NCBI GenBank assembly: GCA_902783545.1
Contig: CACZRD010000046.1
Coordinates: forward strand, 1-32,706
Reading direction: 5' to 3'
Origin: an uncultured Bacteroidales bacterium
GTDB taxonomy: Bacteria > Bacteroidota > Bacteroidia > Bacteroidales > Paludibacteraceae
DNA length: 32,706 bases
The notes under the pieces are model-generated. The model had not been told where the DNA came from and made no database searches. It saw only the letters and a list, made by a program, of their open reading frames with translations. The translations under genes and the position numbers were made by a program. Positions 6,062 through 26,010 of the stretch are shown in pieces. Position 1 is the first letter of the stretch; each line of letters begins with the position of its first letter.

Positions 6062-6538
6062 TTATAGTTGACTTAACATAGCTTGGCAGCCTTCGAGGAT
6101 ATCGTCGTAGGCGGTTGTGAAATCTCCGGTGTACCAGGGATCAGAGATATTTACCATTTTGTCATTTACCATTTGGTCATTTATTGGGACATTAAGCCAT
6201 TGTTTCAGTAACGAAACTTTGTGGTCGGGGGCATCGCCAATGATGTAGCGCAGCCAACGGAGATTGCTCTGATCCATGCAGATGATATAGTCGTAGTAGG
6301 CGTAATCGGCACGCGTCATCTGACGCGCTGCGCGACGGGTAAACGGCACACCTTTTGCTGTCAACATCCGCTTTGCCGGAGGATAGATGTCGTTGCCAAT
6401 CTCCTCGGTAGAGACAGCAGCAGAGGCAATCTCGAAGTCGGCAGAACGACCGGCTTGCGACACCAACTGCTTCATGATAAACTCAGCCATCGGTGAGCGG
6501 CAGATGTTACCGTGACATATAAAAAGTATCTTCGTCAT
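6062..6538 (-). CDS. Low-molecular-weight protein-tyrosine phosphatase with an in-frame repeat insertion
   Basis: A 158-residue cytoplasmic phosphatase. The P-loop I-C-H-G-N-I-C-R-S-P-M-A-E provides nucleophile Cys8 and Arg14, and S-D-P-W-Y-T-G-D-F provides the general acid Asp133. Family members dephosphorylate tyrosine, or arginine in some bacteria. Just before the acid loop, residues 120-130 read N-D-Q-M-V-N-D-K-M-V-N, encoded by a 15-bp tandem repeat (6150-6184) that also occurs in the HAD-HD gene and in an intergenic region. This loop is normally short, so the repeat looks like an insertion that keeps the frame. It is the first gene of the operon ending with bcp, with a promoter 25 bp upstream. 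Confidence 0.93.
   Translation of the reverse strand: MTKILFICHGNICRSPMAEFIMKQLVSQAGRSADFEIASAAVSTEEIGNDIYPPAKRMLTAKGVPFTRRAARQMTRADYAYYDYIICMDQSNLRWLRYIIGDAPDHKVSLLKQWLNVPINDQMVNDKMVNISDPWYTGDFTTAYDDILEGCQAMLSQL
6150..6184. repeat. 15-bp tandem repeat (family A) inside the phosphatase gene
   Basis: The units atttaccattttgtc and atttaccatttggtc are followed by a partial unit, attt. On the coding strand each unit encodes N-D-[QK]-M-V. The same unit occurs at 8237-8266 in another gene and, in degenerate form, at 10080-10137 between genes. Confidence 0.85.
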
Positions 6539-6562
6539 ATTCCGTGTTTACGCATTTCGCCA

Positions 6563-6594
6563 CAAAATTACAAAAAATTCCGCATATTTGCAAG
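6563..6594 (-). promoter_or_regulatory. Bacteroidota-type promoter of the phosphatase-to-bcp operon
   Basis: The minus strand reads CTTG, 20 bp, TAATTTTG. The -7 box is perfect and the -33 box has one mismatch. The expected start is about 19 nt upstream of the phosphatase ATG. It is divergent from the zeta-like kinase promoter 15 bp away. Confidence 0.6.
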
Positions 6595-6609
6595 ATTCTC
6601 CCCTGAAAA

Positions 6610-6641
6610 TTTGCATAATTCAAAAAAAAGTTGTAACTTTG
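6610..6641 (+). promoter_or_regulatory. Bacteroidota-type promoter of the zeta-like kinase pair
   Basis: TTTG at 6610-6613, a 20-bp spacer and TAACTTTG at 6634-6641 form a perfect match to the Bacteroidota consensus. The predicted leader before the ATG at 6675 is about 27 nt. Confidence 0.8.
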
Positions 6642-6674
6642 CAGCCGAAAGTTGCAAAGGTTGTGAATAAATAG

Positions 6675-7253
6675 ATGCAGCACCCGAATTTATATATTAT
6701 CGCGGGCCCGAACGGTGCGGGTAAGACAACAGCCTCGTTTAACTTGCTTCTCGATGTGTTGCATTGCCCGAACTTTGTGAATGCAGATGAGATAGCTCGC
6801 GGCTTATCGCCTTTCACACCGGATACGGTTGCTGTTCAAGCCGGTCGTATCATGCTGCTGCGCATAGAGGAATTGCTGCCACAGCGTGTGGATTTTGCGA
6901 TTGAGACGACACTGGCTACGCGTTCGTACGTGCAACTGGTGCGGCGTGCACAAGCGTTAGGATATAAGGTACACCTGATCTTCTTCTTTTTGGAGAATGA
7001 GGAGCAAGCGATGGCTCGAGTAGCACAACGTGTCAGCAACGGTGGGCATGACATTCCGGAAGAAGACATCCGTCGTCGCTTCAAGCGAGGCATCTATAAT
7101 TTGCTGAACTTGTATATGCCGATTTGCGACAACACACGTGTATATAACAATGAACATGGAGAGCCGATTTTTGTTGCGAAATACAGCAAGGCAACGGATC
7201 AAATGTATATATATGATCAACAGATGTGGAACCTACTAATTAATTGTATATGA
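6675..7253 (+). CDS. Zeta-toxin-like P-loop kinase (predicted ABC-type ATPase, COG4185 type)
   Basis: A 192-residue P-loop protein. A Walker A motif A-G-P-N-G-A-G-K-T-T (residues 10-19) opens the protein, followed by N-A-D-E-I-A-R-G-L-S and F-A-I-E-T-T-L-A-T-R-S-Y, which match the substrate-binding strand and the E-T-T block of zeta/COG4185 kinases. V-A-Q-R-V-x-x-G-G-H-D-I-P and R-R-F-K-R-G are the lid-region basic residues. Zeta toxins phosphorylate UDP-GlcNAc; for the COG4185 branch neither the substrate nor toxicity is well established. It has its own strong promoter, and its TGA overlaps the ATG of a 50-residue gene that resembles the small partners often seen beside this branch. Confidence 0.82.
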   Translation: MQHPNLYIIAGPNGAGKTTASFNLLLDVLHCPNFVNADEIARGLSPFTPDTVAVQAGRIMLLRIEELLPQRVDFAIETTLATRSYVQLVRRAQALGYKVHLIFFFLENEEQAMARVAQRVSNGGHDIPEEDIRRRFKRGIYNLLNLYMPICDNTRVYNNEHGEPIFVAKYSKATDQMYIYDQQMWNLLINCI

Positions 7254-7402
7254 GCGAACGAGAATTAGATGAATTACTGAGTGACGGACTAAAAAAGTCC
7301 TTCCAGAAAGTTGTTGAGCAACATCGTCGCGACAACCAACCGCTCATTTGTAGTGAGAATGGTCAAGTGCAGTACGTGGATCCGTTCACGGTTGCTATAT
7401 AA
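7250..7402 (+). CDS. Small partner protein of the zeta-like kinase, 50 residues (candidate antitoxin)
   Basis: The ATG overlaps the kinase stop codon (ATGA). The product starts M-S-E-R-E-L-D-E-L-L-S-D-G-L-K-K-S-F-Q and ends Q-V-Q-Y-V-D-P-F-T-V-A-I. An acidic/amphipathic helix is followed by R-R-D-N-Q-P-L-I-C-S-E-N-G-Q-V, a hairpin-like 'x-P-L-V-x-x-x-x-G-x-V' pattern. Small proteins with this layout commonly accompany COG4185 kinases, which suggests an antitoxin or modulator. In many such pairs the small gene comes first; here it is second. The function is inferred from position and shape only. Confidence 0.65.
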   Translation: MSERELDELLSDGLKKSFQKVVEQHRRDNQPLICSENGQVQYVDPFTVAI

Positions 7403-7410
7403 CTATCGTC

Positions 7411-7437
7411 TTGCTCCGGGACGCTAAAGCGGAGCAA
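7411..7437. terminator. Hairpin between convergent genes, possible terminator
   Basis: A perfect 8-bp stem, TTGCTCCG (7411-7418) with CGGAGCAA (7430-7437), encloses an 11-nt loop. It lies exactly between the end of the small zeta partner gene and the end of the HAD-HD gene. There is no clear T run on either strand, so it may act by another mechanism or as a 3' stabiliser. Confidence 0.5.
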
Positions 7438-7438
7438 T

Positions 7439-8716
7439 CTATCGGGCAATGGGTGGCTGTTGTTGCCTAAAAAACCACTCTTTGCATAACGCACGAAGTT
7501 TCTTTTCATTCCGAATCAACGCACGGAGTTCTGCTAAACCTTGGAGATTGCGCTCGCTGTTGAGCCAAAGGTGAAGATAACCGCCTTCGGCGTATTTCTC
7601 GTGCAAGTGATCGAGGCTGCGCTGATAGAGAGCCTCGAAATAATCTTGACCTTCGGAAGCTAAGAAATGGGCTTCCGGGAGGAGTTTTTGGCTATACGCC
7701 ATGGTGCGATGGATGACGGTGAGGGGATCGATTTGGCGGTCGGCTTCGGCGACGATGGCGCCATAGATGGTACGCGGAGGGTTTTTGCTGCTGGCACGAT
7801 GATCCTCTACGGCATCACGCATAGTGAGCAGTTGGTCGGGAGTGAACCATTGGCGGAGGGTTTCGTCAGCCATCAGGATCTCACCCGAATGGATATGATG
7901 ATGCTCGCGGTCGAACTTTAAGCCCAAGTCATGGTACGCGGCAATGACGTACGCCATGGTCTCGTCGGCGTTGTAGGCACGCGCCAGTTTGATGCTTTCG
8001 CGGATGACTGTTTCGGCATGATCGCGCTTGTGACCACCATCGAAGACGTCATATTGCGGGAGGATGGATTGCTGAATATAGACATCCAGAAGCAGGTCTT
8101 GCGGCTTGTCGATGATGCGCGAGACCCCGGCTTCTTGCAGCGCCTCTTTGCGCACGAAGCCCCACGAACACGCAACGAAAGGCGTATTCGCATTCGCGGC
8201 AGTGTCGCGATCTACGAGGCTGTCGCCAATGTAAAGTACCATTTGGTCATTGACCATTTGGTCATTTAATATATCGAAGACGATTTGGGGATCGGGTTTA
8301 CGAGGGATGCCATCGCGTTCGCCGAGGATGACATCAAAGATGCCGGGGAAGAAGTGATTGACGATCTTTTCGGTGGCGGCTTGGTACTTGTTGCTGGCAA
8401 CGGCAAGTTGATGACCTTGGGATTTGAGTGCGGCGAGGAGCTCGGGGATACCGTTGTAGGGATGCGTGTAGTCGCAGTTATGATTGTTATAATAAGGAAC
8501 AAAATGCGCGCGCACGCGAAGGATGTTCTCTTCCGTGCGTTCGGATTCCGGCAAGGCACGACGAATGAGGTTATTGATGCCGTTACCGACCATGCGCGGG
8601 TAGTCGGCTATCGTGTGCGTCGGATAGCCGGTCTGCTCCAAGGCGTAGTTGCACGCGTAGCCCAAGTCGTCGATGGTGTTGAGCAGCGTGCCGTCCAAGT
8701 CAAAGATTATTGTCAT
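7439..8716 (-). CDS. Fusion of a HAD phosphatase (phosphoglycolate phosphatase-like) and an HD-domain phosphohydrolase
   Basis: A 425-residue two-domain protein. Residues 1 to about 212 are a HAD hydrolase: F-D-L-D-G-T-L-L (nucleophile Asp6, acid Asp8), V-A-S-N-K, K-P-D-P and Y-I-G-D-S-L-V-D-R-D. From about residue 225 an HD domain follows: G-G-H-K-R-D-H-A-E-T-V, then A-A-Y-H-D-L-G-L (His262, Asp263), H-H-I-H-S-G-E and E-A-D-R-Q-I-D, a complete metal-binding set. HAD members remove phosphate from small metabolites; the HD substrate is unknown. Residues 151-160 (N-D-Q-M-V twice) are encoded by repeat family A and replace the loop before the last HAD motif. The Met at 8716 starts right at the HAD fold; the frame is open to 8797, but that part encodes an inverted repeat. 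Confidence 0.88.
   Translation of the reverse strand: MTIIFDLDGTLLNTIDDLGYACNYALEQTGYPTHTIADYPRMVGNGINNLIRRALPESERTEENILRVRAHFVPYYNNHNCDYTHPYNGIPELLAALKSQGHQLAVASNKYQAATEKIVNHFFPGIFDVILGERDGIPRKPDPQIVFDILNDQMVNDQMVLYIGDSLVDRDTAANANTPFVACSWGFVRKEALQEAGVSRIIDKPQDLLLDVYIQQSILPQYDVFDGGHKRDHAETVIRESIKLARAYNADETMAYVIAAYHDLGLKFDREHHHIHSGEILMADETLRQWFTPDQLLTMRDAVEDHRASSKNPPRTIYGAIVAEADRQIDPLTVIHRTMAYSQKLLPEAHFLASEGQDYFEALYQRSLDHLHEKYAEGGYLHLWLNSERNLQGLAELRALIRNEKKLRALCKEWFFRQQQPPIAR
8237..8266. repeat. 15-bp tandem repeat (family A) inside the HAD-HD gene
   Basis: Two units, taccatttggtcatt and gaccatttggtcatt, differ at one base. On the coding strand each encodes N-D-Q-M-V. The same unit lies in the tyrosine phosphatase gene about 2 kb away. 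Confidence 0.88.
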
Positions 8717-8800: not shown

Positions 8801-9676
8801 TCAGATACGCTCCAGAACGGTGCGTACGAGTTCCTTGATACGGGGTTTGTAGTCGGTGTTGGCGGCTTCGATCTTACGCTGTGCGATAACGCAGCAGACA
8901 GTCATAGCGCGGTGTCCCATGTGCAGAGCGAGACCTGCGATGCATGAGCCTTCCATCTCGTAGTTGGTGATGCGTTGTCCATGATAACGGAACGCGGTGA
9001 TCTTCTCGTTAATGTCGGGCACAGCCAGATCAACACGGAGCACACGACCTTGCGGGCCATAGAAACCGTTGGCGGCAATGGTGCAGCCACGCATCATATC
9101 GTCCTTAGCGATACGATCAACGAGTTCGGGGTTAGCAGCAACAACGTAGGGCACAGCGGCTTTCTTGGGGTAACCGATGAAGTCCACGAGAGCCTGTTCG
9201 AAGCCAACGTCGGCAATCTTGTCACGGTCGTGATAGAAAGCGAGGACGCCGTCGAAGCCGATGGACTTCTGGCTAACGAGGAACGTGCCGAGAGGTATAT
9301 CCTCTTGCATGCCGCCGCACGTACCGATACGCACGATGTCAAGGCAACGTTTCTCAGCCTTCTCGGTGCGGGTAGCGAAGTCGATGTTAGCCAAGGCGTC
9401 AATCTCGTTCATGACGATGTCGCAGTTGTCTGTACCGATACCGGTAGAGATACACGAGATACGTTTACCTTGGAACTTACCGGTGATGGTGTGGAACTCG
9501 CGGCTCTGAACGTCGCACTCGATTGAGCCTTCGTCAAAGAACGAGGCCACCATATTCACACGGTCTTGGTCGCCGACGAGGATCACCTTGTCAGCGAGGA
9601 ACTCGGGTTTGAGATGCAGATGGAACGCTGATCCGTCTGCATTGATGATCAATTGACTTGCTGGGAATGTTTTCAT
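8801..9676 (-). CDS. Nucleoside phosphorylase (uridine phosphorylase-like)
   Basis: A 291-residue protein of the PNP/UDP phosphorylase fold, which splits nucleosides with phosphate into base and (deoxy)ribose-1-phosphate. V-G-D-Q-D-R-V near residue 35 and I-S-T-G-I-G-T-D-N match the phosphate and nucleoside loops. R-I-G-T-C-G-G-M-Q-E-D-I-P-L-G is the family signature, and N-Y-E-M-E-G-S contains the Met-Glu pair that holds the ribose. The length is somewhat above the E. coli Udp (about 253 residues), as is usual in Bacteroidota. Uridine is the likeliest substrate, but I cannot separate uridine from other nucleosides by eye. It lies in the middle of a long minus-strand gene run. Confidence 0.85.
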   Translation of the reverse strand: MKTFPASQLIINADGSAFHLHLKPEFLADKVILVGDQDRVNMVASFFDEGSIECDVQSREFHTITGKFQGKRISCISTGIGTDNCDIVMNEIDALANIDFATRTEKAEKRCLDIVRIGTCGGMQEDIPLGTFLVSQKSIGFDGVLAFYHDRDKIADVGFEQALVDFIGYPKKAAVPYVVAANPELVDRIAKDDMMRGCTIAANGFYGPQGRVLRVDLAVPDINEKITAFRYHGQRITNYEMEGSCIAGLALHMGHRAMTVCCVIAQRKIEAANTDYKPRIKELVRTVLERI

Positions 9677-9703: not shown

Positions 9704-9757
9704 GCTCTGGATGATCCGGAAGTTCCGGAGGTTCTGGAAGTTCTAGAAATTCCAGAT
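9704..9757. repeat. 9-bp tandem repeat array (family B) in the DUF3467-phosphorylase gap
   Basis: The units read ccggaagtt, ccggaggtt, ctggaagtt, ctagaaatt, ccagatt from about 9716, preceded by degenerate copies. The array begins right after the stop codon of the DUF3467 gene. The same 9-bp unit, with the shared core ttccggaggttctgg, lies inside ligA at 20669-20719. Confidence 0.85.
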
Positions 9758-10068
9758 TAGGCTTCGCCGCTGCCGAAGGACAGGGGGAAGGTAGAGCCGG
9801 GTATTGGCTGCTGACGATTGTTCAGGTTAATTTGCCCGAACTGTTTCTCGAACTTCGCTACGTTGTCCTGGAGCGCGAGAAGCAGACGTTTGGCGTTCTC
9901 GGGCGTCATGATGACGCGGCTCTGGACTGCAGCTTGTTGAACACCCGGCATCACAGATGCAAAGTCCATGATGAACTCATTCTGCGAGTGCGCGATGATA
10001 GCAAGGTTCGAATACGTGCCGGCAGCTTTGTCCGGCGCAATGCTAATATTCATTTTTTTCTCTTCCAT
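9757..10068 (-). CDS. DUF3467 family protein
   Basis: A 103-residue small protein. The core (Y-S-N-L-A-I-I-A-H-S-Q-N-E-F-I-M-D-F, then R-V-I-M-T-P-E-N-A-K-R-L-L-L-A-L-Q-D-N) matches the DUF3467 pattern common in Bacteroidota, where the function is unknown. The tail after the core is Gln/Pro/Gly-rich and probably flexible. No signal peptide or membrane segment is present. The neighbouring gap on the upstream side contains a degenerate copy of repeat family A, and the gap after its stop contains repeat family B. Confidence 0.85.
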   Translation of the reverse strand: MEEKKMNISIAPDKAAGTYSNLAIIAHSQNEFIMDFASVMPGVQQAAVQSRVIMTPENAKRLLLALQDNVAKFEKQFGQINLNNRQQPIPGSTFPLSFGSGEA

Positions 10069-10079
10069 AAAGCAATTTA

Positions 10080-10137
10080 CAATTTATTCATTTACAATTT
10101 TATCATTTATTTTACCATTTGGCTATTGGGTTATTTA
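10080..10137. repeat. Degenerate 15-bp repeat (family A) between glycosyltransferase and DUF3467 genes
   Basis: The sequence can be cut into atttacaatttattc, atttacaattttatc, atttattttaccatt and tggctattgggttatttacc. This resembles the atttaccatttggtc unit found inside two coding regions at 6150 and 8237. It fills nearly all of the 66-bp gap. Confidence 0.6.
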
Positions 10138-11436
10138 CCAGCGTTTGGGTTTGGGGCGCAGGGGCTCGATGAGCATCATCGTGAGCGTGATCAGCGGCAA
10201 GATGATCTCCCAAACGGGTATGAGCAGTATTGTTTTTGTTGTGCCCCAACGCGAGGCAGGGATGTTCAGTAAGACGCATTGCCAGATCCAGCGGAGCAAC
10301 ATGGCGCCAGCGGCTATGAGTAGTGGCCATTGGCTGCCATCACCCCACTGCCAGTTAGTTGTGGGGACCCCGAGAGCCGTTAGCTGTTGGCAGTAGAGCA
10401 CGATGAGTGCTATCAATGCGGCGTAGAGCAGTCCGCGGGTGAAGGGCTCGAGGCAGAGCCGGAACTTGGTGGACGGCTTGTACTTAGGTGCAACACTCAG
10501 GTGACGGCGTTTCTGGCGAAGCCAGTCAGCAAGCGAGGATTTGGGTACAGACCACGTCAGGCTGTTGCGGGTGCAGACTACGGCTGTGTTCTGTCGGGTT
10601 GCCTCGCGGTTGACGAACAGGTCGTCGTCACCGGCTTTATTGTCGAGCAAGCCGACAAAGCCTCCGTGCGCAAAGAACAGCCGTTTGCTATACGCGAGGT
10701 TGCGTCCTACGCCCATGTACGGGTGACCGGCAGCAGCCATGCCGAGGTATTGCAAACCGTTGAAGAGCGTATCGAACTGAATCATCCGGTTCAGCAGCGT
10801 CGGTTTGACGAAGTAGGCGCCGAAGCCGAGGACGATGTCGATTGGCTCTTGGCTTTTGGCCATTGGCTGTTGGCCTGTGAAGCCGGACATCATCTCACTG
10901 ATCCAGTGGGTTGATTCGGGACGGCAGTCGGCATCGGTGAGCAGCAGGTAGTCATATTGTGCGGCTTTCGCACCGAGCGTGATAGCAAGTTTCTTTGTCG
11001 AGGTGATCTTAGCGCCAACGGGAACGAAGGTCAGACGAAGGTTCTTGTAGCGCTTCTGCCAGTACTCGAGATAGGTGCGCGTGTCGTCCACACTGCCGTC
11101 GTTGACGATGATCACCTCGTACTCGGGGTAGTCTTGCGTGAGGAGGGCTTGCATGAAGTCGCGCAGGTTCGCGAGTTCGTTGCGTGCGCAGACTATGACA
11201 CTCACTCCCGCGTTCGGCAATGGGGACGCAACAGATACCGCATCGCGGTATAAAAGCGTCCCATGCCTCCGCTCCTCCCCACCACAAACACTTTGTTGGT
11301 TTGTGTTGGGGACCCCATGTCTGGTGCGACGAACAGCGGCGAGGATGTACCTCAAATAGAAGTACACCTGATACAACCACGCGAGGGCAAAGATGCCAAG
11401 CGTAATCTGTTCGATCAATGTCCAGTCAGTTAGCAC
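10135..11436 (-). CDS. Membrane-anchored family 2 glycosyltransferase carrying several in-frame repeat insertions
   Basis: A 433-residue protein. There is one N-terminal membrane segment (about 8-30), then a GT-A catalytic domain: V-S-V-I-V-C-A-R-N-E, V-N-D-G-S-V-D-D-T, the metal-binding L-L-T-D-A-D-C, G-D-D-D-L-F-V, and an R-Q-K-R-R-H block like the Q-x-x-R-W motif. Two to three C-terminal membrane segments follow. It should transfer a sugar from a nucleotide donor to a surface glycan precursor. Residues about 40-75 (H-G-V-P-N-T-N...) lie between membrane anchor and catalytic domain and are encoded by nested hairpins; another stretch (T-G-Q-Q-P-M-A-K-S-Q-E-P) is encoded by five 7-bp repeats at 10842-10876. 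Both look like tolerated insertions that lengthen the protein. Confidence 0.87.
   Translation of the reverse strand: MLTDWTLIEQITLGIFALAWLYQVYFYLRYILAAVRRTRHGVPNTNQQSVCGGEERRHGTLLYRDAVSVASPLPNAGVSVIVCARNELANLRDFMQALLTQDYPEYEVIIVNDGSVDDTRTYLEYWQKRYKNLRLTFVPVGAKITSTKKLAITLGAKAAQYDYLLLTDADCRPESTHWISEMMSGFTGQQPMAKSQEPIDIVLGFGAYFVKPTLLNRMIQFDTLFNGLQYLGMAAAGHPYMGVGRNLAYSKRLFFAHGGFVGLLDNKAGDDDLFVNREATRQNTAVVCTRNSLTWSVPKSSLADWLRQKRRHLSVAPKYKPSTKFRLCLEPFTRGLLYAALIALIVLYCQQLTALGVPTTNWQWGDGSQWPLLIAAGAMLLRWIWQCVLLNIPASRWGTTKTILLIPVWEIILPLITLTMMLIEPLRPKPKRW
10842..10876. repeat. Five 7-bp tandem repeats inside the glycosyltransferase gene
   Basis: The units are ttggctc, ttggctt, ttggcca, ttggctg and ttggcct. 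They encode the hydrophilic stretch Q-Q-P-M-A-K-S-Q-E-P on the minus strand, in a place where related glycosyltransferases have only a short turn before the I-V-L-G-x-G-A-Y strand. Confidence 0.8.
11223..11262. repeat. Nested perfect hairpin inside the glycosyltransferase gene
   Basis: The outer arms GGGACGC (11223-11229) and GCGTCCC (11256-11262) and the inner arms ATACCGC (11235-11241) and GCGGTAT (11245-11251) are all perfect, with a 3-nt loop. A second inverted repeat follows at about 11277-11311 (cccca-cacaaac arms). Both fall in the linker between membrane anchor and catalytic domain. Confidence 0.85.
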
Positions 11437-11442
11437 AACAGT

Positions 11443-11470
11443 CAGCTATCAGTAATCAGCAATCAGTTAA
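11443..11470. repeat. Four 7-bp tandem repeats overlapping the end of the PCMD gene
   Basis: The units are cagctat, cagtaat, cagcaat and cagttaa. The last one supplies the stop codon (TTA on the plus strand at 11467) of the PCMD-protein gene. The array fills most of the 30-bp gap before the glycosyltransferase start. Confidence 0.75.
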
Positions 11471-14229: not shown

Positions 14230-14352
14230 GTATCTGTTAACAAATTGAAAAATAGGCGTTTTATCCTATGGTTATCTTATGGTTATGTTGTGGGTATCCT
14301 ATGGTGAGGGGTGCTTCCGGTCTCGTTTTTGGTCGGTAACAGTTCTGCAAGT

Positions 14353-14418
14353 GCGCTGTGTGAGTGCTGCGTAGGCGCTGTGTGAGTGCTGCGTGGGCGT
14401 TGCGTGGGCGTTGTGTGA
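14353..14418. repeat. Six 11-bp tandem repeats in the GNAT leader
   Basis: The units are gcgctgtgtga, gtgctgcgtag, gcgctgtgtga, gtgctgcgtgg, gcgttgcgtgg and gcgttgtgtga; pairs form two 22-bp higher-order copies. They are transcribed as part of the long leader of the minus-strand GNAT gene. Confidence 0.85.
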
Positions 14419-18311: not shown

Positions 18312-21525
<3,214 letters not shown>

Positions 21526-24723: not shown

Positions 24724-24743
24724 ATCCGCCATATATGGCGGAT
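24724..24743. repeat. 20-bp perfect palindrome upstream of the RAYT-like gene
   Basis: ATCCGCCATATATGGCGGAT is its own reverse complement. It sits 24 bp before the transposase-like start codon. A second palindrome, differing by one compensated base pair in each arm, lies inside that gene at 25162-25181. Confidence 0.9.
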
Positions 24744-24767: not shown

Positions 24768-25898
24768 ATGGTGACTGACTGGTACACATATTGGAAAGAG
24801 CACGATGGACTGCTGAACTATGTCCATCGCCCTCATTCTGTATGGCGGGATTACACGGCACGCGGCATATACCATATCACAATCGTTACATACAAGCGCA
24901 CCCACGCATTCGGCGAACTGAATAATGACCTAACCCATCCGGCTGTTGTGCTAACAGAACTGGGGCAAGCGGTTGAACAGAATTGGTTGGCGATTCCGAA
25001 TCTCCATGGCACTCATGGTCGCCGACTGCGTCTGTTAGGGCATCAGATTATGCCGGATCATTTCCATGGCATCCTACAGGTGCTTGATCCTATGGATGTC
25101 GGCATCGGTGAGATCATCCGCGGCTTCAAGATCGGTTGCACGCAAGCGTACCGGACTATAGATCAGCCATATATGGCTGATTCCATTGATCGATACACAT
25201 TAGCCCACTCCTCTCGTAAGCAACGCGAGGATTACTATGCAGAACAAGGCCTGAAGCCACTATTTGAGGACAACTACGACGATACTATTTGCTATCGCAA
25301 AGGACAACTGGCTAATATCATCCGCTACGTGCAAGACAATCCCCGTCGGGCAATCATGCGCGCCAAGTATCCGGATTTGTTTAGGCATCGCCAACACATA
25401 ACGATAGCCGGACATGATTACGCGGCGTACGGCAACCTCTTTCTGTTACGGCGTCCGTGGAAAGAGCAAGTCTTTTGTCATCGCTGGCGGATGATCAACG
25501 GCAACCGTGATTATTCAACACCTTACGAGACTACCGACGATTTCCGTATCTGCCGTGAGAGCTGGATACAAGCAGCCAAAGACGGGGCTGTATTGGTTAC
25601 ACCGGGAATCTCCAAAGGCGAACAACAACTGGTTAAAGACTGCATTGAACAAGCCTTGCCGCTCATTCACTTGCAGAAGGAGCCAATGCCCAACGGCTGG
25701 AATCCAGAGATGCGCAGACATCAGCTGTGCGAGATGGGACAACTGCTCATCTTATCGCCATGGCAACTGGCTGAGATGTCGGATTTCGCAGGTGTACCTG
25801 CTGATACCGACTATAGCATGTTCCACAACATGAACACCCTTGCCGAACAATTATGTTCAGACGACATGGGCGGAGATTACCGCATCAAGCAATCATGA
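24768..25898 (+). CDS. REP-associated Y1 (IS200/RAYT-like) transposase with extra C-terminal domain
   Basis: A 376-residue protein. The N-terminal half is a Y1-type HUH domain: Y-H-I-T-I-V-T-Y-K-R, the metal-binding I-M-P-D-H-F-H-G-I-L (His-Phe-His near 97-101) and a downstream catalytic Tyr near 187 in I-I-R-Y-V-Q-D-N-P-R-R-A, the form seen in REP-associated transposases. From about residue 205 an added domain contains A-V-L-V-T-P-G-I-S-K-G-E-Q-Q-L-V and L-C-E-M-G-Q-L-L-I-L-S-P, resembling a Rossmann/DprA-like segment that accompanies such proteins in Bacteroidales. It is probably domesticated rather than a complete insertion sequence, since no IS ends are seen. Two 20-bp palindromes next to and within the gene are candidate substrates. 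Confidence 0.75.
   Translation: MVTDWYTYWKEHDGLLNYVHRPHSVWRDYTARGIYHITIVTYKRTHAFGELNNDLTHPAVVLTELGQAVEQNWLAIPNLHGTHGRRLRLLGHQIMPDHFHGILQVLDPMDVGIGEIIRGFKIGCTQAYRTIDQPYMADSIDRYTLAHSSRKQREDYYAEQGLKPLFEDNYDDTICYRKGQLANIIRYVQDNPRRAIMRAKYPDLFRHRQHITIAGHDYAAYGNLFLLRRPWKEQVFCHRWRMINGNRDYSTPYETTDDFRICRESWIQAAKDGAVLVTPGISKGEQQLVKDCIEQALPLIHLQKEPMPNGWNPEMRRHQLCEMGQLLILSPWQLAEMSDFAGVPADTDYSMFHNMNTLAEQLCSDDMGGDYRIKQS
25162..25181. repeat. 20-bp perfect palindrome inside the RAYT-like gene
   Basis: ATCAGCCATATATGGCTGAT is a perfect palindrome. Compared with the copy at 24724 it differs only by C-to-A in the left arm and the matching G-to-T in the right arm, so base pairing is conserved. It encodes Q-P-Y-M-A-D in the linker before the catalytic Tyr. 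Confidence 0.9.
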
Positions 25899-25943: not shown

Positions 25944-26010
25944 CGGATCGGAATTGCATCGAAAATGCATCGGAAACGGATTAGGAATGCATTAGGAATG
26001 CACTTGATGA
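25944..26010. repeat. 11-bp tandem repeat array downstream of the RAYT-like gene
   Basis: The units are about cggatcggaatt, gcatcgaaaat, gcatcggaaac, ggattaggaat, gcattaggaat, gcacttgatga. The 153-bp gap to the AT-rich operon holds nothing else recognisable. The 11-bp period matches that of the unrelated array at 14353. Confidence 0.75.

Follow-up and report, generated by a model that had tools for sequence, protein, structure and literature searches.

Short repeats of the heptamer type are known in bacteria, and one class of them, the short tandemly repeated repetitive sequences (STRRs), was reportedly described in 1997, in a title by Vioque, inside RNase P RNA, a functional RNA gene. Here, we analyzed a 15-nucleotide (nt) tandem repeat that lies in frame in two enzyme genes of an uncultured Bacteroidales bacterium (Paludibacteraceae; contig CACZRD010000046.1), within a stretch of 32,706 nt that is hereafter called the window. 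The 15-mer is probably the core of a non-palindromic element of about 45–60 nt, consisting of ordered 7- and 8-nt sub-words, which would serve as an STRR-like leader of mRNAs without Shine-Dalgarno sequences, still be spreading, and be tolerated in frame in protein loops. Four described systems come closest. Cyanobacterial STRRs of 7 bp were reported between hupS and hupL (PMC2670836). TAACTGA heptamer direct repeats were reported for marine Beggiatoaceae, Cyanobacteria, and five Bacteroidetes (MacGregor 2015, PMC4679880), and the same source reports two sets of TAACTGA-type repeats in Paludibacter. GGGAATC heptamer repeats were reported for Xanthomonas and Nostoc (PMC4692102). Furthermore, Rickettsia palindromic elements and repetitive extragenic palindromes (REPs) occur inside open reading frames (ORFs), as described in PMC3733652.

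As a kind, the present repeat is already known; its combination of a register to the start codon, in-frame sense copies, and turnover of the repeat word at fixed sites was not found in searches of open-licence papers. Like the TAACTGA repeats, it is short, non-palindromic, forward-oriented, located just 5′ of start codons, and patchy, and it sometimes overlaps the stop codon of the upstream gene (PMC4679880). Unlike them, it has a 15-nt composite unit with one open sense frame, and it is one of many coexisting words, so that a given site can hold one word in one species and another in its relative. Units of 7 nt in short tracts dispersed genome-wide are also a property of STRRs (PMC2670836), which the class of words described below shares; unlike STRRs, these words are hosted by protein loops as well as leaders and keep a register to the start codon. 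GGGAATC repeats, whose preferred copy number is four, are likewise dispersed heptamers, but they are G-rich, quadruplex-forming, and under-represented on the coding strand of ORFs (PMC4692102). As with the Rickettsia palindromic elements, one short DNA element lies in frame in unrelated protein genes (PMC3733652); unlike these and the REPs, which are palindromic, the present words are non-palindromic, tandem, and located mainly in leaders and spacers.

The first-pass annotation of the window had noted the tandem 15-mer in both enzyme genes and a degenerate copy between genes. All three were borne out, with the earlier coordinates within about 1 nt:
6149..6183, minus strand: 15-nt tandem array of 2.3 units, in frame in the low molecular weight (LMW) phosphatase gene; Tandem Repeats Finder (TRF) score 63.
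6183..6196, minus strand: 5′ flanking sub-word of the phosphatase copy, CTTAATGTCCCAAT in gene sense, from the sequence.
6062..6538, minus strand: LMW protein-tyrosine-phosphatase gene, which hosts the copy; Pfam LMWPc, E 2.8e-31.
8238..8266, minus strand: 15-nt tandem array of 1.9 units, in frame in the HAD-HD gene, 5′ of Y-I-G-D-S; TRF score 58.
7439..8716, minus strand: gene for a HAD phosphatase with a fused HD domain, which hosts the copy; Pfam HAD_2, E 3.3e-36, and HD, E 8.5e-05.
10075..10124, minus strand: degenerate copy in the junction that separates a glycosyltransferase gene from the DUF3467 gene.
9757..10068, minus strand: DUF3467 gene, with the junction copy as its leader; Pfam DUF3467, E 7.1e-27.

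In gene sense, the phosphatase array reads AAATGACCAAATGGT and encodes N-D-Q-M-V-N-D-K-M-V-N, and the HAD-HD array encodes N-D-Q-M-V-N-D-Q-M-V, as had been claimed for both genes. The hosts are indeed unrelated by descent, belonging to different families (LMWPc versus HAD_2 plus HD). The sub-word at 6183..6196 resembles the 5′ part of junction copies when copies are compared by eye. Units of the degenerate junction copy begin at 10075, 10090, and 10110, and the ATG of the DUF3467 gene (10068) stands exactly 7 nt past ..TTGTAAA, a spacing shared with many other junction copies. When the window was scanned for the 15-mer with up to three mismatches, eight matches were observed against 0.88 expected, and none of 100 shuffles reached eight.

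A genome-wide count, which the first-pass annotation had proposed as a check, showed that the repeat occurs far beyond the window and is spread across the genome. In the window's own genome (G000, a 1.92-Mb draft), an 18-base core matched 87 times at up to three mismatches and its reversed control 19 times; at up to two mismatches, the numbers were 65 and 0. These counts, together with the window shuffles, exclude a chance origin. All genomes compared were drafts or metagenome-assembled genomes (MAGs). In a mixed set of 61 genomes, comprising 37 of the genus (own included) and 24 of other families in the order, amplification was confined to the genus; the other families gave 0–4 matches, with controls of 0–6, whereas among the genus genomes the number was patchy, ranging from 0 to 116. 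In a second set of 61 genomes, all of the genus (the first 37 plus 24 added), there were at least 10 matches in 24 genomes and none in 15. One relative, G035, had 110 matches at up to two mismatches.

Stretches were then fetched around the places in G000 with a unit at up to two mismatches, and around 40 places in G035. Genes were called by our own ORF caller trained on these stretches, not by a standard gene finder, and their starts are uncertain. An array is called sense when the mRNA reads AAATGACCAAATGGT. In G000, 47 arrays were counted, the degenerate copy at 10075–10124 being excluded because it has no unit at up to two mismatches. The split between coding and intergenic sites, also proposed earlier, placed most copies between genes: 27 sense and 3 antisense arrays lay in co-directional junctions, 13 sense arrays in ORFs (8 internal, 4 N-terminal, and 1 C-terminal), 1 antisense array in a weak ORF, and 3 arrays at contig ends. 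In G035, 33 sense and 5 antisense of 58 arrays lay in co-directional junctions, and the ORF copies were 7 internal, 6 N-terminal, and 0 C-terminal in sense, plus 1 antisense, and 1 array lay at a contig end; two of its loci (L245 and L255) hold the same gene segment, which is double-counted in this tally and in the Q-codon count below and counted once in the 7-nt tail score and the start-codon and frame tests. Pooled, co-directional junctions held 60 sense versus 8 antisense arrays, a forward orientation like that of TAACTGA-type repeats. One intergenic copy had thus been seen in the first-pass annotation, but the main habitat, the stretch just 5′ of start codons, had been missed.

The junction copies also keep a register to the start codon. 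In the sense junctions of the two genomes, the first ATG opening at least 60 codons stands exactly 7 nt after GTAAA in 26 of 70, which again resembles the nearness of TAACTGA-type repeats to starts, and an open ATG stands at 4 nt in a further 7. The next start is in the NDQMV frame in 39 of the 53 junctions having an ATG within 40 nt. Of the 33 junctions with a +7 start, 21 have lost the ATG of the unit itself, at 15 nt upstream, as has 1 of 14 internal ORF copies. This contrast is partly built in because genes starting at the unit ATG need no +7 start, but the loss at the +7 junctions still points to a single start site in each. In several genes, the array closely follows TACCTTTGC or a similar sequence, which we take to be the Bacteroidetes −7 promoter box.

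On its sense strand, the 15-mer has one open frame (N-D-Q-M-V), the other frames holding TAA and TGA, and on its antisense strand all three frames are open. Because the unit has one open sense frame, it can occur in sense inside ORFs. Pooled internal ORF copies were 15 sense versus 2 antisense (with one G035 gene entering two times), whereas random landing would give 1:3, but hydrophobic antisense peptides may be selected against. By eye, 14 of the 15 internal sense copies (7 of 8 in G000) are in the NDQMV frame, the exception (L198) having a modified word. What counts for the in-frame copies is the single open sense frame of the 15-mer. The first-pass annotation had instead stressed that the unit length is a multiple of 3, which fails as the key, since many 7-nt words sit inside ORFs too. 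In junctions, the NDQMV frame stays open in 70 of 102 units, unlike the TAACTGA unit, which has stops in all three forward frames; the Q codon is TAA in 32 of the 102 junction units and in 0 of 26 ORF units. A conserved 7-nt tail in the ORF copies is weakly indicated (mean score +2.0 versus −2.0, standard deviation 3.7; 15 copies, one of them C-terminal). At L207:2543–2575, one ORF ends in the array (C-terminal ..NGSINDQMVND), and the next gene follows immediately. One clear antisense copy (..VHLPFGHLP..) was observed in frame at L236:2469–2486, in a well-scored ORF of 696 residues, which shows that antisense insertion can be tolerated.

The in-frame hosts are unrelated proteins; besides the LMW phosphatase and the HAD-HD protein, they include RNase R, a ketoacyl synthase, and a non-ribosomal peptide synthetase (NRPS)-like protein. 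In the phosphatase, the copy is a net insertion, with 26 residues from KVS to DPWY versus 16 in the seven uninserted relatives printed. Of 110 aligned rows, 3 have NDQMV-type sequence at this site, one of them being that of the window, and the repeat is therefore not ancestral, as had been presumed. A conserved peptide motif of the enzymes was rejected, since relatives lack NDQMV-type sequence. The peptide shared by the two enzymes appears to stem from one DNA element that entered both genes in mRNA sense, and not from protein function. The structural model of the phosphatase has a mean pLDDT of 91.5, which falls to 57 in the block of residues 121–130 covering the repeat; the repeat is thus predicted to be a flexible loop close to the DPWY motif, in agreement with the earlier placement. 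In the HAD protein, the idea of an insertion did not hold: the repeat adds no length and sits in a gap-free stretch of the alignment with the solved homologue 2hi0, so it overwrote a similar length of loop there. Among named relatives, those nearest to the phosphatase come from MAGs that bear the label Paludibacteraceae or Bacteroidales, several of them from ruminant stomachs. The HAD-HD fusion (7439–8716, minus strand) has matches of at least 415 residues at 82–85% identity in five genus genomes (G035, G030, G026, G079, and G021). In most other genus genomes, the two domains have their matches at different places, and the few longer matches are of low identity, such as 38% in G020.

Next, the architecture of the copies was compared. 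The 15-mer is itself a 7+8 composite, and its consensus is AAATGA..AAAT.GT with variable positions between. In the element, a 5′ part such as CCAAATGACCAAAT is followed by AAATGGT repeats, AAATGACC, AAATGGTAAAT, about 7 nt, and the start codon. Of 4435 locus pairs, 36 were identical over 30 nt or longer without interruption, the longest run being 40 nt, one twice-held gene aside; the 25 longest include pairs of different loci within one genome, and some of the 36 pairs may be orthologous. Because different loci share 30–40 nt of ordered sub-words, an element of about 50 nt seems to have been copied. Adjacent units differ by 1.92 bases within a locus versus 2.13 across loci, so likeness is hardly greater within a locus. 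The unit has no inverted repeat, and the loops that received copies vary too much for a target duplication to be visible.

At the same site, related species hold different words. The phosphatase loop is clearly extended in 7 of the 110 aligned rows (own included), three with NDQMV-type sequence and the others with AATGACC or GGGTTAC words. In RNase R (30 best of 56 matching genomes), the loop was empty in 16, held word tracts in 10, and was long without a clear word in 4, as judged by eye. One well-supported clade contains G000 with NDQMV, G001 with a GCGGTCTAACAGCGAA-type word, and G007 with an empty loop. When the four long loops were pooled with two tracts as "other", the labels changed 11 times on the tree versus a shuffled mean of 13.1; because a number as low was reached in 12 of 200 shuffles, some clustering of the labels is indicated. 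NDQMV occurs in two separate RNase R clades, and because G000 and G035 share odd neighbouring details (KSPN), common descent or exchange of this copy is as likely as two landings.

The leader of ffh behaves similarly (30 best of 59 matching genomes). Its array is identical in G000 and G007 over the 100 nt printed (L262 and L264), Ffh being 97% and RNase R 81% identical between the two, which hints at recent exchange, or at a binning error. Related A-rich arrays precede ffh in G035, G021, and G069. Besides G001, which is taken up below, the array is absent in the other 24 genomes, and two of these, G003 and G034, contain AAATTGTAAAT. Among 29 orthologous leaders of G000 and G035, the sense word was flagged in both for 4, only in G000 for 3, only in G035 for 3, and in neither for 19, one of the 19 having an antisense array in both genomes.

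The 15-mer is accompanied by many other words. G000 and G035 hold numerous further short tracts, mostly of 25–40 nt and with a period of 7; lag-7 tracts numbered 42 and 71 in their stretches versus 1 and 4 for lag-6. The density of 7-family tracts per 10 kb was 3.23 and 6.30 in the array-selected stretches of G000 and G035, the latter sample having been chosen for holding arrays, which biases tract densities upward. The 58 loci of the genus that surround the phosphatase and HAD genes, both of which have tracts in their own loops, gave 2.35, as against 0.81 for 36 further loci of Bacteroidales type and 0.62 for 25 mostly Firmicutes loci, with taxon groups assigned by hand from record titles; shuffles gave 0.00–0.23. 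For all words, 67 and 78 tracts lay in ORFs versus 56 and 65 in co-directional junctions (G000 and G035), in stretches that contain far more coding than non-coding sequence. In ORFs, AAATGGA is read as MENGKWK and AACAGCC as SQQPTAN, and a TAACTGA tract is present in a junction of G000 (L220). A 17-base AATGACC probe gave 61 matches in G030 (control 0) and 1 in G009, in which the 15-mer has 27 and 114 matches, respectively. This word is thus amplified in partly different species than the 15-mer, although its reversed control also gave matches in some genomes (up to 31, in G003 and G035). Up to rotation, TTGGTCA, a word of the STRRs, equals the reverse complement of AATGACC. Further words lie in the window:
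9706..9752, minus strand: 9-nt word of TTCCAGAAC type, which fills the junction upstream of the gene at 8801–9676; TRF.
10849..10875, minus strand: 7-nt word of AACAGCC type, in frame in the glycosyltransferase gene (..GQQPMAKSQEP..).
11437..11466, minus strand: TAACTGA-like word tract in the junction upstream of the glycosyltransferase gene.
20678..20715, plus strand: 9-nt word tracts, in frame in DNA ligase LigA (NCBIfam); two overlapping TRF rows.

From these data we infer a leader role, an origin as a spacer, and a copying route, and we consider such a leader element the probable explanation. In a lineage without Shine-Dalgarno use, the element would have arisen as the spacer and leader that precedes start codons, and it would still have this role. 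It can end the upstream gene with a stop codon and would set the start of the next one. A recombination or copying process would move it between loci, and copies landing in or overwriting loops would persist when the frame is open and the peptide polar. Essential enzymes would then gain peptide loops from what looks like leader DNA, and gene callers are warned that N-terminal extensions (MVNDQMVN...) may not be real. The genus offers natural experiments, the same leader or loop holding the 15-mer, another word, or none, among species with proteins 80–99% identical, so that leader function versus parasite becomes directly testable in it.

Several observations weigh against a leader element that is copied between loci. 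An open ATG within 40 nt is missing in 17 of the 70 sense junctions, 5 of the 58 G035 arrays lie between convergent genes, and some arrays, by eye, precede terminator-like hairpins. G001 has no element before ffh although its Ffh is 98.8% identical, so the element is not needed there. The base at −3 is T in 58% of array leaders, whereas other genes have A in 50%; in this, the array leaders are unlike the A-3 rule reported for Flavobacterium (PMC6847099). Array leaders are also not less structured than GC-matched ones, with a mean minimum free energy (MFE) of −5.48 (n = 33) versus −4.68 (n = 59), a difference that is not significant; the mean for the leaders of all other genes was −7.04 (n = 211), which did not differ significantly from the array leaders either. 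Thus, an advantage of unstructured leaders is unsupported by the MFE comparison. Unlike hairpin-forming palindromic elements, the array leaders fold no better than shuffles (mean z +0.08), and the unit is not palindromic. Compared with permutations, unit pairs from one locus show a slight excess of likeness (91 of 2000 permutations; 674 of 2000 for G035 alone), and some local slippage may therefore have occurred. Finally, no copying enzyme was identified.

Some of these points fit dispersed STRR-like repeats that are neutral or selfish, without leader function, which land anywhere and survive in spacers and soft loops; the sense bias would then reflect selection against out-of-frame starts and hydrophobic antisense peptides. 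We hold this rather unlikely, while granting that it accommodates the lack of special RNA structure in array leaders, the uneven repeat numbers across the genus (0 to 116 matches), the same-site turnover with different words in the ffh leader and the RNase R loop, the copies in loops of essential enzymes, and the existence of antisense copies (8 in junctions and 2 in ORFs). However, it accounts poorly for the +7 spacing and the NDQMV-frame preference of the following start, and for the sense bias of 60 to 8 in junctions, where peptide selection does not act. Moreover, the antisense junction copies are non-random, 6 of 8 starting directly after a stop codon (gap 0).

The turnover of words can also be read, though we consider this doubtful, as an active process that would write interchangeable word tracts of about 30–60 nt, in mRNA sense, into leaders and into permissive loops of essential enzymes. 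Such writing would draw on a genus-wide stock of mostly 7-nt-based words and swap one for another at the time scale of species. If true, the dispersed repeats would form a system of a new kind, with lasting sites and changing words.

It is improbable that the repeats are binding sites of a sequence-specific RNA- or DNA-binding regulator. The AAATGA..AAAT.GT consensus with its variable positions would suit such sites, and a comparable proposal was made for TAACTGA repeats (PMC4679880), but related species hold other words or nothing at the same junction, and copies sit in ORF loops.

A distant REP-associated tyrosine transposase is encoded at 24768–25898 (plus strand; NCBIfam REP_Tyr_transpos, E 9.8e-9, below the family cut-off), with a perfect palindrome, ATCCGCCATATATGGCGGAT, at 24724–24743 just upstream of the gene and a related one at 25162–25181 inside it. 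Pfam Y1_Tnp matched neither this protein nor anything in G000. We think it very unlikely that a single-strand (HUH) transposase of this type moved the element, and the link is a weak lead only. Beyond the distant match itself, it draws on a correlation between the numbers of homologs and 15-mers (rho 0.50, significant, in 37 genus genomes and 0.43 in all 61), with an integrase control uncorrelated (−0.01 over 61). However, the correlation, uncorrected for relatedness, was weak in the 24 added genomes (rho 0.20, p 0.35), 3 of 19 genomes without a homolog had at least 10 repeat matches, and homologs did not correlate with the AATGACC word (rho 0.18). The match also reaches 35 bits versus a cut-off of 80, and the repeat is not palindromic, the palindrome adjoining the transposase gene being a different sequence.

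Least probable of all is that the arrays were born locally, independently per gene, by replication slippage of A-rich leaders, for although array-less ffh leaders of two species (G003 and G034) contain AAATTGTAAAT and units within a locus show a slight excess of similarity, identical ordered stretches of 30–40 nt at different loci weaken slippage as the sole cause, there is almost no within-locus homogenisation, ORF copies have no leader, and the length range is narrow (25 of 285 7-family tracts reach at least 45 nt).

Other features were observed beside the repeat. A gene for a Zeta-toxin or AAA_33-like ATPase lies at 6675–7253 (plus strand) by Pfam, with no match in NCBIfam, and a small open frame follows it on the same strand. 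Tracts of another class, with a period of 11, are intergenic at 14261–14410 and 25947–26002, and 11-nt tracts recur in relatives. Furthermore, a two-module NRPS-like protein of at least 2007 residues (L184:81–6101) contains tracts of different words, six by TRF, of which two adjoin each other.

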